Shown here in pieces: positions 9,220-13,075 of a stretch of 13,963 bases of DNA. The DNA is from a bacterium (GTDB lineage Bacteria; Blakebacterota; Blakebacteria; Blakebacterales; Blakebacteraceae). Location of the stretch: NCBI GenBank assembly GCA_025774205.1, contig JALGWK010000085.1, positions 1 through 13,963 on the forward strand, given 5' to 3'. The translations under genes and the position numbers were made by a program. The notes under the pieces are model-generated. The model saw only the letters and a list, made by a program, of their open reading frames with translations, did not search any database and was not told the origin of the DNA. Every line of letters begins with the position of its first letter. The stretch's first letter is position 1.

Positions 9220-10203
9220 ATGAATATCCGCGCTGTCCATACAGAAGATGCCGACCGCATCCGCAGGATCATGAAGGTGGCCTTCGAGGACGAATACCGC
9301 CGGATGGGACAGAAGCAGACCCGCCTGCCTACCATGACCGATCAGCTGCTCGGGTACTATCTCGACCGGACCCCCGAATATTCCTTCGTCGCCGAGAAGA
9401 AGGGGGGGGCGGTCGGTTTCTGCCTGGTGTGCAGATGGGGCACAACGGCCTGGATGGGGCCGATAGCCGTTCTGCCGCCGGCCCAGGGCACGGGGATCGG
9501 CCGTTCGATGGTCGAGGCCTCGATCGCCGCCCTGAGAGACACCGGGATCACAACCCTCGGTCTCGAGACCATGCCCCGCTCATATCGGAACCTCCAGTTC
9601 TACAGCCGTCTCGGCCTGAACTTCGAACAGTTGACCCTCGACCTGAGCCGGGTCTACCGGAACGGATCGGAAGTGGATGACGGGGGGGAGCGGCAGAGGC
9701 TTGAACTGGTGTCACTGGCTGACGGCATGGGAGCTGAACAGGAATCCGCCCTGCGGGCCGTCACCGCAATATCCGACCTGGTCAGCCCCGGTCTCGACTA
9801 TCGTTCTGAAGTCGAATTGACCGGATCGCATCGGTTGGGTGACACGATCCTGGCCTTCCTCGACGGCACTCCCGTCGGATTCACGATATTCCATACCGAA
9901 CCGTACGCGAAAGAAGAGATCCACGGGACCGTGAGGATCAACACACTGTTGCTGGCGCCTCCCTCAGGTGGGGAAGACACCCTCGACCGGTTGCTGGAGA
10001 GCATGATCACCGGGCTCGAGAAACGGTTCGTGGCCTCCGGCTTCGACGCGATTATCTTCCGCGTCCCGGTGAGATATCGATCCGCCAGGAACATCCTGCT
10101 GAGACGAGGATTCGCGATCAATCATTCAGATGTGAGGATGACCTGTGATGACCTGCCCGAAGCGGACAGGCCGGGTGTGATCCACCTCAGCAAGTGGGAG
10201 TAG
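9220..10203 (+). CDS. GNAT-family N-acetyltransferase with two tandem GNAT-like domains
   Basis: 327 residues, cytoplasmic. The first domain (about 1-150) opens MNIRAVHTEDADRIRRIM and has the acetyl-CoA-binding loop as VLPPAQGTGIG (Q89-G94) followed by the helix RSMVEASIAAL, then a typical LGLETMPRSYRNLQFYSRLG, in which Y and F close the fold. The second domain (about 165-327) keeps the overall order, with INTLLLAPP, a long helix, FRVPVRYRSARNILLRRGF, but has SGGED in place of the Q/R-G-x-G-x-G/A loop, so it is probably degenerate and unable to bind acetyl-CoA. The substrate is unknown. It ends 10 bases before the GTG of the feoB-like gene, so it is likely cotranscribed with it and lies first in that unit. 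Whether it has an iron-related job cannot be inferred from position alone. The ribosome site is weak (GGGG at 9208-9211). Confidence 0.85.
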   Translation: MNIRAVHTEDADRIRRIMKVAFEDEYRRMGQKQTRLPTMTDQLLGYYLDRTPEYSFVAEKKGGAVGFCLVCRWGTTAWMGPIAVLPPAQGTGIGRSMVEASIAALRDTGITTLGLETMPRSYRNLQFYSRLGLNFEQLTLDLSRVYRNGSEVDDGGERQRLELVSLADGMGAEQESALRAVTAISDLVSPGLDYRSEVELTGSHRLGDTILAFLDGTPVGFTIFHTEPYAKEEIHGTVRINTLLLAPPSGGEDTLDRLLESMITGLEKRFVASGFDAIIFRVPVRYRSARNILLRRGFAINHSDVRMTCDDLPEADRPGVIHLSKWE

Positions 10204-10213
10204 GGATCCGACC

Positions 10214-12184
10214 GTGAGTATCGATCCGCAACAGGGAGCTGTGGCTGTTCCGGCAGAGAGGGGAGCAGGACGGCTGCTACTGGTGGGGAACCCGAACGTC
10301 GGCAAGAGCGCCATCTTCGGGGAATTCACCGGTCGGTACGTGACGGTCTCGAATTACCCCGGCACCACCGTCGAGGTCACGAACGGCTCGGCCACCCTCG
10401 GCGGCCGCCGCTGGGAGGTGGTCGATACTCCGGGGATCAACACCCTCATCCCCCAGTCGGAGGATGAGCAGGTCTCCCGTGACATCCTCCTGAACAATGG
10501 CCACGACGTGGTTCTCCAGGTCGGGGACATGAAGAACCTGCGTCGGGTCCTGCTCGTGACCCTGCAGCTGGCTGAGATGCAGGTGCCCTTCCTGCTCGAC
10601 CTCAACATGAGGGACGAGGCGAGGACAGCGGGGATCGCGGTCGATACCGGGCAGCTGGCCTCGATCATCGGGGTTCCGGTGGTGGCCACGGTCGCGACCC
10701 GGAAGAAGGGGCTGGCCACCCTGATCGACAGTATCGACGACGCGGACCGGAGCGACTGGCGATGCGACTATCCCCCCAGCATCGAACGGGCCGTGAAAAA
10801 GATAGAGCAGATGCTTCCCGACGATCTGACGATCAGCGGGAGATCGATCGCGCTGATGCTGCTGGCCGGCGATGAGACGCTTCGTCCCTGGTTGAGGGAA
10901 CGGGTGGCGACCGGGGATATCAGGGAGCTTGATGAGATCATCATCGGTCTGAACCGGGAGTTCGCCGCGGGACCGAGGATCGCGATCAACCGGACCCGCA
11001 TGGCGTTCGTCGACCGGGTCATGGCAGAGGTATACCAGGTCAGGTCGGCTTCATCGGCACCGGCGTGGTTGACAACCATCAGCGATCTGTCGATGCATCC
11101 GGTCTGGGGAATCCCTTTTCTTCTTCTGACCCTGGTGATCGCCTACCTGATGGTGGGCCTGCTGGGGGCCGGAGTCCTGGTCGACTGGTTCGAAGGGGTC
11201 TTCTTCGAAGGGTGGCTGAATCCCCTTGCCACGCGGGTGATAGACGCCGTCCTGCCGATCCCCCTGCTGCGCGATCTGCTGGTGGGGGAATACGGAGTGA
11301 TCACCATGGCCCTGACCTACGCGGTCGCTATCGTGCTGCCGATCGTGGGCACCTTCTTCATCTTCTTCTCCTTTCTCGAGGATTCCGGGTACATGCCCCG
11401 TCTCGCGGTCATGTCCAACCGGATCTTTCGGAAGATGGGCCTGAGCGGAAAAGCCGTGCTGCCGATGACCCTCGGTCTCGGCTGCGACACCATGGCCACC
11501 ATGACCGCCAGGATCATGGAGACCAGGAAGGAGCGGGTCATCGTGACCCTCCTCCTGGCTCTCGGCGTGCCCTGCTCGGCCCAGCTGGGCGTCATCCTCG
11601 GCATGCTGGCCGGACTGGGCCCGGTCGCGATGCTGATCTGGGTGGGACTGTGGCTCTTCAGCAGGCTCTATCCGGGCGACCGGAGTGATTTTATCCTCGA
11701 ACTTCCTCCTATCAGAGTGCCCCGGTTCAGCAACATCCTGGTCAAGACACTGGCCAGGATCGAATGGTACCTGAGGGAGGCCGTGCCCCTCTTCATCGTC
11801 GGGACCTTCATCCTCTTCGTGCTCGACCGGCTGAACTTCCTCCCCGCCATCGAACGAATGGCCGCCCCTGTCATCCAGAGCGCCCTCGGATTGCCAGTGG
11901 AGGCGACCCAGGCGTTCCTCATCGGGTTCCTGAGGCGTGATTACGGGGCAGCCGGCCTGTTTGATCTCTTCCAGGCGGGAGAGCTCGATCCGATCCAGGC
12001 GCTCGTGGCGCTCATTGTCATTACCCTCTTCATGCCCTGTATTGCTAACTTGTTGATGATCATTAAAGAGCGGGGTCTGAAGACAGCGATCTGGATGAGC
12101 GCTTTCATCCTTCCCTTCGCGCTCATCGTTGGTACGGTCGTCAATTACCTCCTGCGACTGCTCGGGGAGGGGGTGGTGACATGA
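10214..12184 (+). CDS. feoB: FeoB-type ferrous iron transporter with variant membrane motifs
   Basis: Inner-membrane protein taking up Fe(II), with an N-terminal GTPase. Seen: G1 GNPNVGKS 25-32 (N28 at the position linked to potassium-stimulated hydrolysis), switch I YPGTTVE 48-54, G3 DTPG 71-74, G4 NMRD 131-134, a helical GDI-like region about 190-275, then a polytopic membrane part from about 290 to 650. The landmark FLEDSGYMPR is kept. The first gate-type motif is GLGCDTMA (421-428) where classical FeoB has G-x-G-C-x-V-P-A, and the second is PCSAQLGV (C454) where E. coli-type has SCSARLPV; both cysteines are conserved. The length of 656 is shorter than the 773 of E. coli. I believe this variant occurs in other anaerobe and uncultured lineages. 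The GTG start has a weak upstream G-run (GGG 10203-10205). Its stop overlaps the next start as ATGA. There is no separate feoA upstream. Confidence 0.92.
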   Translation: MSIDPQQGAVAVPAERGAGRLLLVGNPNVGKSAIFGEFTGRYVTVSNYPGTTVEVTNGSATLGGRRWEVVDTPGINTLIPQSEDEQVSRDILLNNGHDVVLQVGDMKNLRRVLLVTLQLAEMQVPFLLDLNMRDEARTAGIAVDTGQLASIIGVPVVATVATRKKGLATLIDSIDDADRSDWRCDYPPSIERAVKKIEQMLPDDLTISGRSIALMLLAGDETLRPWLRERVATGDIRELDEIIIGLNREFAAGPRIAINRTRMAFVDRVMAEVYQVRSASSAPAWLTTISDLSMHPVWGIPFLLLTLVIAYLMVGLLGAGVLVDWFEGVFFEGWLNPLATRVIDAVLPIPLLRDLLVGEYGVITMALTYAVAIVLPIVGTFFIFFSFLEDSGYMPRLAVMSNRIFRKMGLSGKAVLPMTLGLGCDTMATMTARIMETRKERVIVTLLLALGVPCSAQLGVILGMLAGLGPVAMLIWVGLWLFSRLYPGDRSDFILELPPIRVPRFSNILVKTLARIEWYLREAVPLFIVGTFILFVLDRLNFLPAIERMAAPVIQSALGLPVEATQAFLIGFLRRDYGAAGLFDLFQAGELDPIQALVALIVITLFMPCIANLLMIIKERGLKTAIWMSAFILPFALIVGTVVNYLLRLLGEGVVT

Positions 12185-12396
12185 CGACCTGTCCTCTCTG
12201 CGGCAACCGCTTCGAGGAAGGGGAGAACAGCGCCTGCAGTGCCTGTCCGATGGGCCGGGAGTGCGGTACGATCTGCTGCCCGAACTGCGGGTACCAGTTC
12301 ATCGAGCGTTCCTGGATCGTGGATACCTGGCGGTCATTCAGGCAGGCGGTCATTTCGGGTGTGAGCGGAAAGAAGAACAGGATCGATGATACATAG
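12181..12396 (+). CDS. Small eight-cysteine protein of the feo cassette, zinc-ribbon-like
   Basis: 71 residues, soluble, no membrane segment or signal. Cysteines lie at 4, 7, 19, 22, 28, 32, 33 and 36: CPLC, eleven residues, CSAC, five, C, three, CCPNCG. The two outer CxxC knuckles with following G (CPLCG, CPNCG) look like a zinc ribbon or rubredoxin-type knuckle, and the inner CSAC and C28/C32 could hold a second metal or an Fe-S cluster. The last 30 residues are basic and Trp/Arg-bearing (SWIVDTWRSFRQ, GKKNR). It begins in the ATGA of the feoB-like stop and overlaps the regulator by 11 bases, so it is translated with both, which suggests a partner in iron transport or sensing. It is not the known FeoC (no winged helix) and not the membrane-anchored FeoB-associated Cys-rich protein. 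From memory only, similar short proteins sit beside FeoB in uncultured bacteria; a search would settle it. Confidence 0.8.
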   Translation: MTTCPLCGNRFEEGENSACSACPMGRECGTICCPNCGYQFIERSWIVDTWRSFRQAVISGVSGKKNRIDDT

Positions 12397-13075
12397 ATTC
12401 GGTTTCAACGCCTGGCAGACCCATGAAGAGCGGGAGCAGGAACATCTCCTTCATCTGCTCTGGAACCTCGAAGAGGAGGGTAATCAGCGGCTTGAGACCG
12501 TGAAGGAACGCTGGATCCAGGATGGGGATCCCGATCCGATCATCGAACTGGCCCGGGACGTCGGGTTGGTGACCGTCGAGAACGGGGACCTGCGGCTTAC
12601 CGACCAGGGTAAAGAACAGGCCGAGGATCTCGTCCGCCGCTTCCGCCTGGCCGAATGCCTCTTCAGTGAGGTGTTCCTGCTGGAGGAGATGCAATACGAG
12701 AAGAGCGCCTGCGAGTTCGAGCACATCCTCACCCCCGAGGTGACCGACAGCGTCTGCACCCTGCTGGGACATCCCCCCATCTGCCCGCACGGTCGCCCGA
12801 TCCCGAAAGGGGCGTGCTGTGCGAAGTTCAGTTCCGACGTGAAACCGATCGTCGTGCGACTCTCCGACCTCGGCCCGGGTGACATCGCCAAGGTCGTGTT
12901 CATTACCTTCACCCGCTCGAAACACCTCGACAAGCTCGACACGATCGGTCTCACGCCGGGCGCCATGGTGAAACTCCATCAGCGCCAGCCCTCCTTCATC
13001 CTCGATCTCGGTGAGACCCAGATCGCCATCGACCGGGAGATCGCTCACGAGATATTCGTGAAGAAGATGGGTTAG
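12386..13075 (+). CDS. DtxR/MntR-family metal-dependent regulator with C-terminal FeoA/SH3 domain
   Basis: 229 residues. Residues 14-80 fit the DtxR winged helix (HLLHLLWNLEEEG, GLVTVENGDLRLTDQGKEQA). Residues 81-140 fit the dimerisation domain: RRFRLAE, then SACEFEHILTPEV with C109, E112 and H113 at the DtxR primary-site positions C102, E105 and H106, then CPHGRPIP. H20 takes the place of DtxR Met10. Ancillary ligands differ: F86 where DtxR has His79, and E105 where it has His98, while E90 matches Glu83. The recognition-helix region (GDPDPIIELARDVG) is unlike the usual SxxTVSxxVxRLE. Cysteines C124, C133, C144 and C145 add a further possible metal site. Residues 155-228 form a FeoA-like SH3 domain (RLSDLGPGDIAKV, LDTIGLTPGAMVKL). 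It probably represses the feo genes with Fe(II), or acts as the FeoA of this FeoB. The start ATG 12386 lies inside the preceding gene. Confidence 0.88.
   Translation: MIHRFGFNAWQTHEEREQEHLLHLLWNLEEEGNQRLETVKERWIQDGDPDPIIELARDVGLVTVENGDLRLTDQGKEQAEDLVRRFRLAECLFSEVFLLEEMQYEKSACEFEHILTPEVTDSVCTLLGHPPICPHGRPIPKGACCAKFSSDVKPIVVRLSDLGPGDIAKVVFITFTRSKHLDKLDTIGLTPGAMVKLHQRQPSFILDLGETQIAIDREIAHEIFVKKMG

Follow-up and report, generated by a model that had tools for sequence, protein, structure and literature searches.

A small cysteine-rich protein encoded directly downstream of feoB is very probably a Feo accessory of one divergent FeoB clade

Feo is the most widespread Fe(II) importer of prokaryotes, and the role of its small accessory proteins is debated. 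The stretch of DNA analysed here (13,963 nucleotides, referred to below as the window) raises this question in a particular form: what is the role of a 71-residue, cysteine-rich protein whose gene lies between feoB and the gene of a DtxR-type regulator? All three genes are on the forward strand. The feoB gene (10214-12184, 656 aa) matches TIGR00437 (E 7.5e-116) and PF02421 (E 6.5e-48) and falls by phylogeny into a divergent FeoB clade. The regulator gene (12386-13075) encodes a DtxR-type metal-dependent regulator (PF02742, E 8.7e-22) with a C-terminal FeoA domain (12854-13063; PF04023, E 4.1e-13); in ten relatives the Cys protein itself carries a directly fused FeoA domain. The small gene (12181-12396) begins with an ATG at 12181 that forms an ATGA with the feoB stop codon (TGA, 12182-12184), is preceded by a G-rich, Shine-Dalgarno-like stretch (ggggaggggg), and runs 11 bp into the regulator gene, whose ATG lies at 12386. 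A sequence-only reading had described this 71-residue frame and its two overlaps, and the coordinates confirm it on each point. The window also holds a GNAT-type acetyltransferase gene (9220-10203), which stops 10 bp short of feoB and may belong to the same operon, and an open-ended 926-aa ORF (3-2783) that by eye resembles a UvrA-type ABC excinuclease subunit.

The small ORF is under purifying selection. It shares 62% identity (global alignment) with its same-genus homologue, with dN 0.25 and dS 0.77, giving a dN/dS of about 0.32 (0.09 for the neighbouring regulator). As this constraint is joined by a Cys pattern that recurs in 67 loci, we consider the ORF to be a real gene. Weak matches within the same genome, L002 and L003, were broken or short and were set aside as paralogues; L009, which has internal stops, was set aside as a family member. 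On contig C319 the window genome (G000) carries a second, different feo locus (L122), where another FeoB is preceded by DtxR-like and FeoA domains, and no member of the small-protein family was found there.

We searched for relatives by protein sequence alone, so that gene position served as an independent test. A single-protein search of 60 sampled genomes returned clean-ORF homologues beyond the window's genus, in four genomes (G026, G042 twice, G016 and G014). The feoB side was readable in five of the six loci, with feoB adjoining in each, and the remaining locus lay at a contig edge; at one locus (L008) the Cys protein was fused to a FeoA domain. A scan of a genome collection with a seven-row alignment and a CPNC search pattern gave 42 loci, all in metagenome-assembled genomes. 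Their bacterial hosts were labelled Chloroflexota, Calditrichota, Eisenbacteria, Saganbacteria/WOR-1, Latescibacterota, Verrucomicrobiota, Lentisphaerota, deltaproteobacterial lineages, a betaproteobacterial genome, Bacillota, Actinomycetota, Firestonebacteria, Armatimonadetes and Sumerlaeota, and their archaeal hosts Bathyarchaeota and Thermoproteota; because all are metagenome-assembled, single taxon labels may be wrong, though the gene order was read on single contigs. Using a 43-row profile, we found the family in 31 of 386 sampled genomes, with one match per genome except in G042, which has two. In total, the family comprises 67 non-redundant loci, the window included, from about 15 named bacterial phyla and from Thermoproteota/Bathyarchaeota. 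Plasmids and viral contigs yielded no member.

Enough contig was available at 65 of the 67 loci, and at 63 of these feoB lies directly upstream on the same strand, with a median of 5 bp from its stop codon to the start of the profile match. A 4-bp stop-start overlap like that in the window is possible in 25 of the 63 loci, and a 1-bp overlap in four, showing that such overlap with feoB is widespread but not universal. On the 3' side, a FeoA domain follows or is fused at 61 of the 63: 44 loci have a DtxR-FeoA gene, 10 a fused FeoA domain and 7 a stand-alone FeoA. Neither is within reach at the other two, since the contig ends at L049, and at L040 an insertion places the regulator about 1.1 kb further on. 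The fused FeoA domains match PF04023 (E 1e-9 to 1e-13 in the six tested), and in a model of a fusion the FeoA domain is predicted with confidence and aligns with crystal structures of FeoA (3e19, E 3e-6). Furthermore, feoB is present in all 31 family-positive genomes, compared with 295 of 386 overall. Two Armatimonadetes members (L048, 3213-3443; L051, 3118-3354) lie away from feoB beside unrelated genes. This near-exceptionless membership of feoB operons, together with the covalent joining to FeoA in several lineages, indicates that FeoB and the FeoA domain are the working partners of the protein. The sequence-only reading had named it a candidate FeoB accessory and had stated that a wide spread without any link to feoB, or membership of a characterised family, would speak against this; the loci showed the opposite, and no Pfam or NCBIfam model claims the family. 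We are therefore highly confident that the Cys protein is a Feo accessory.

We next describe the cysteines. The window protein has the eight that had been reported (C4, C7, C19, C22, C28, C32, C33 and C36), of which only seven are conserved in relatives. Both knuckles, C4-P-L-C7 (12190-12201) and C33-P-N-C36 (12277-12288), have cysteines that are invariant in all 43 aligned members, whereas P34 and N35 owe part of their invariance to the search pattern, which contained them. Between the knuckles lies an inner motif, C19-x2-C22-P-x4-C28 (12235-12264), in which C22 and C28 are likewise invariant and C19 is kept with a shift of at most one residue in some members. The eighth, C32 (12274-12276), is optional, being C in 23, K in 19 and V in 1 of the 43, and R, G or H in further members. 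Members found without the CPNC pattern have the same layout where the motif scan could read them; the most divergent one (G211/L126) has looser Cys spacing and went unmatched by the scan. From their sequence, C4, C7, C33 and C36 look like rubredoxin or zinc-ribbon knuckles. Structure prediction of the protein alone, as had been suggested, did produce an AlphaFold2 model, but a weak one (mean pLDDT 65), with a predicted, low-confidence C-terminal helix at residues 45-59 (12313-12357). With a best Foldseek E value of 1.7, to LysW, the model was unusable for assigning a fold, and matches of the profile to PDB zinc fingers (2i13 and others) were read as matches of CxxC composition.

The regulator has cysteines of its own. 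At 12786-12824 it carries the motif CPHGRPIPKGACC, and the pattern CP[HDF]xxxIPxGxCC occurs in 40 of the 44 loci with the small gene and a DtxR-FeoA regulator, in 9 of 10 loci of the same clade without the small gene, and in none of 30 canonical FeoB loci. This pattern may possibly form a second metal or thiol site of the regulator subfamily.

Could the protein be a known accessory under another guise? One parallel is FeoC (PF09012), the winged-helix Feo accessory of Gammaproteobacteria and others, which is also small, soluble and encoded directly 3' of feoB; in E. coli, feoC starts on the last base of feoB. An O2-sensitive [4Fe-4S] cluster can be present in FeoC, which in E. coli functions fully only with its cysteines and in some species binds and stabilises FeoB (PMC8749426, PMC9047314, PMC11406355). 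PMC8749426 also reports the motif CxxGxCKxCPx4-7C for FeoC, along with [4Fe-4S] binding and a requirement for the Cys residues. The inner C-x2-C-P-x4-C of the Cys protein has a spacing identical to that of E. coli FeoC (C61-x2-C64-x5-C70), and the last three cysteines of the FeoC motif fit this spacing (x2, x5) in most members, its first Cys being absent. However, the window protein gave no PF09012 match at E up to 1 (E. coli FeoC as control, 4.5e-13), and homology was rejected on this ground and on an hhalign probability of 3.5% over 13 columns. The loop is thus similar to FeoC in motif, and homology is not demonstrable. Unlike FeoC, the Cys protein has no winged-helix match, has an extra pair of CPxC knuckles and belongs with another FeoB clade. 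Mutual exclusion with FeoC was uninformative, given just four clear FeoC loci in 386 genomes. Two of the FeoC genes encountered, at L112 and L114, have the Cys patterns CGSCCSC and CCHGCVSCC, unlike E. coli FeoC, so the FeoC Cys motif is itself variable.

Other known proteins were compared as well. The FeoB-associated Cys-rich membrane peptide (PF12669), which PMC8749426 describes as prevalent in Firmicutes/Bacteroidetes, is likewise small, Cys-rich and encoded 3' of feoB. In contrast, the present protein is hydrophilic and has another Cys pattern; it gave no PF12669 match in Pfam at E up to 1 and, by inspection, has no long hydrophobic segment. In setting the protein apart from both FeoC and this membrane-anchored peptide, the sequence-only reading was correct. 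FeoI of Stenotrophomonas maltophilia, an alternative third Feo subunit in place of FeoC, is predicted to be an inner-membrane protein and has no identified Fe-S site (PMC9047314). FeoA (PF04023), to which the Cys protein is covalently joined in ten relatives, is an SH3 domain that lacks a Cys module, and the window protein itself has no FeoA domain. Rubredoxin and zinc-ribbon proteins (LysW, RUBY_RBDX, DZR) share the two CPxCG-type knuckles and give weak profile and structure matches: PF21349, the rubredoxin-like domain of rubrerythrin, is found at best E 1.2e-5 among the 11 of 43 members that match it, and rubredoxins in the PDB are matched at E of about 0.004. They differ from our protein in that it has a Cys triad inserted between the knuckles and a feo context, and the window protein matches only generic profiles, below their curated cut-offs; matches of other members in Pfam and NCBIfam are likewise to generic knuckle profiles. 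In open full texts (subscription papers, InterPro, COG and arCOG being outside this scope) no named protein at this position was found, and the survey of Feo evolution in PMC8749426 names, in its available portion, only FeoA, FeoC and the PF12669 membrane peptide. Within open-access papers, Pfam and NCBIfam, then, the family is apparently undescribed.

To place the protein among FeoBs, we built a FastTree phylogeny of 98 FeoBs, with rows picked by presence and absence of the small gene. All 58 gene-bearing FeoBs, fusions included, fell into one clade (72 rows, support 94), which also contains 14 FeoBs that lack the gene; this ratio reflects the choice of rows and is not a natural frequency. 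Mapped on the tree, presence and absence require at least nine changes, indicating that losses are common, and the fusion with FeoA arises at least four times, which hints at physical contact of the Cys protein with FeoB or FeoA. The gene was present in none of the 30 best-scoring canonical FeoB loci. In the window's sister genus (G003), feoB is followed directly by the DtxR-FeoA gene; this genus and the other FeoBs of the clade without the gene, about 14 in all, show that the small protein is not needed for transport as such. It is an optional accessory of one divergent FeoB clade. We also considered whether it replaces a Cys-rich FeoB tail, and rejected this, as FeoB tails are almost Cys-free with the gene, without it and in canonical FeoB. 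The FeoB-1 proteins of Geobacter, reported to form a separate cluster of unassigned specificity (PMC2700814), may belong to this divergent clade.

What, then, does the accessory do? It might be an unrelated zinc-ribbon protein co-transcribed with feoB by chance, given that Cys knuckles are cheap in sequence and that two members, L048 and L051, are unlinked; yet linkage at 63 of 65 loci in about 15 phyla and two domains, with repeated fusion to FeoA, leaves chance next to impossible. The sequence-only reading had laid emphasis on the DtxR-type regulator, and the protein could indeed be its partner, adjusting feo operon transcription as an anti-repressor or zinc-ribbon co-regulator: at 44 of 63 loci its gene is flanked by feoB and the DtxR-FeoA gene, and overlap with the regulator gene is frequent. 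That emphasis did not hold up, because in 17 of the 63 loci just a FeoA domain lies on the 3' side (10 fused, 7 separate), so that DtxR is dispensable. Clade members without the Cys protein also keep the same DtxR-FeoA regulator after feoB, and we regard this role as improbable.

Two further readings place the protein at FeoB itself. As an iron chaperone, it would collect Fe(II) where FeoB opens to the cytoplasm, bind it at its Cys sites, rubredoxin-like or as a thiolate relay, and pass it on without regulating FeoB, which would suit a small, soluble, Cys-rich neighbour of FeoB with the rubredoxin-like matches described above. Two tight all-Cys knuckles, however, normally keep their metal firmly, and the fusion partner is FeoA, a docking and regulatory SH3 domain, rather than an iron-using enzyme; a chaperone therefore seems rather unlikely. 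It also seems unlikely that the protein, with zinc in a purely structural role, stabilises FeoB or helps to assemble it, acting without sensing as a protease shield like Salmonella FeoC or as an aid to oligomerisation. Zinc-ribbon profiles are the commonest weak matches, stop-start coupling suggests co-translational assembly, and protection of FeoB from FtsH by FeoC is known (cited in PMC9047314), but this reading does not explain why the inner Cys triad is so strictly conserved besides the knuckles.

Judging by the fusions, and by how constantly the protein is paired with FeoB and FeoA, its most likely role is that of an accessory module working through FeoA. Specifically, we give about an even chance to a dedicated, soluble, cytoplasmic and metal-binding accessory of one FeoB clade, with a FeoC-like role, that acts on FeoB via the FeoA domain. 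The Cys layout argues for a rubredoxin or ribbon scaffold bearing a FeoC-like metal loop. While the link to Feo is observed, we infer the metal, the sensing and the direction of control as follows. C4, C7, C33 and C36 would make up an M(Cys)4 scaffold of the rubredoxin or zinc-ribbon type. The C-x2-C-P-x4-C loop between the knuckles, which C32 completes in some members, could bind another metal or else an Fe-S cluster of labile kind, and this site would report cytoplasmic iron or oxygen. FeoA, an SH3 fold, makes a nucleotide-dependent contact with NFeoB (PMC8980893), and the Cys protein likely shares its docking surface on FeoB. The FeoA SH3 domain would dock the Cys module on the FeoB G domain, so that occupancy of the loop could alter how FeoB turns over nucleotide, how it is gated or how stable it is.

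Small Cys-rich Feo accessories are already known as a kind, and the present protein adds another, a second and apparently unrelated Cys-rich accessory of Feo. More tentatively, and with doubt outweighing confidence, it may represent a class of Feo subunit common to bacteria and crenarchaeal lineages, in which a rubredoxin or zinc-ribbon scaffold with a FeoC-spaced, iron- or oxygen-sensing loop gates a divergent FeoB via FeoA, the function of FeoC having converged on another fold. The protein also marks one FeoB clade, and its recurrent fusion to FeoA offers a natural, small and soluble module in which iron or oxygen sensing by a Cys loop through FeoA can be tested.
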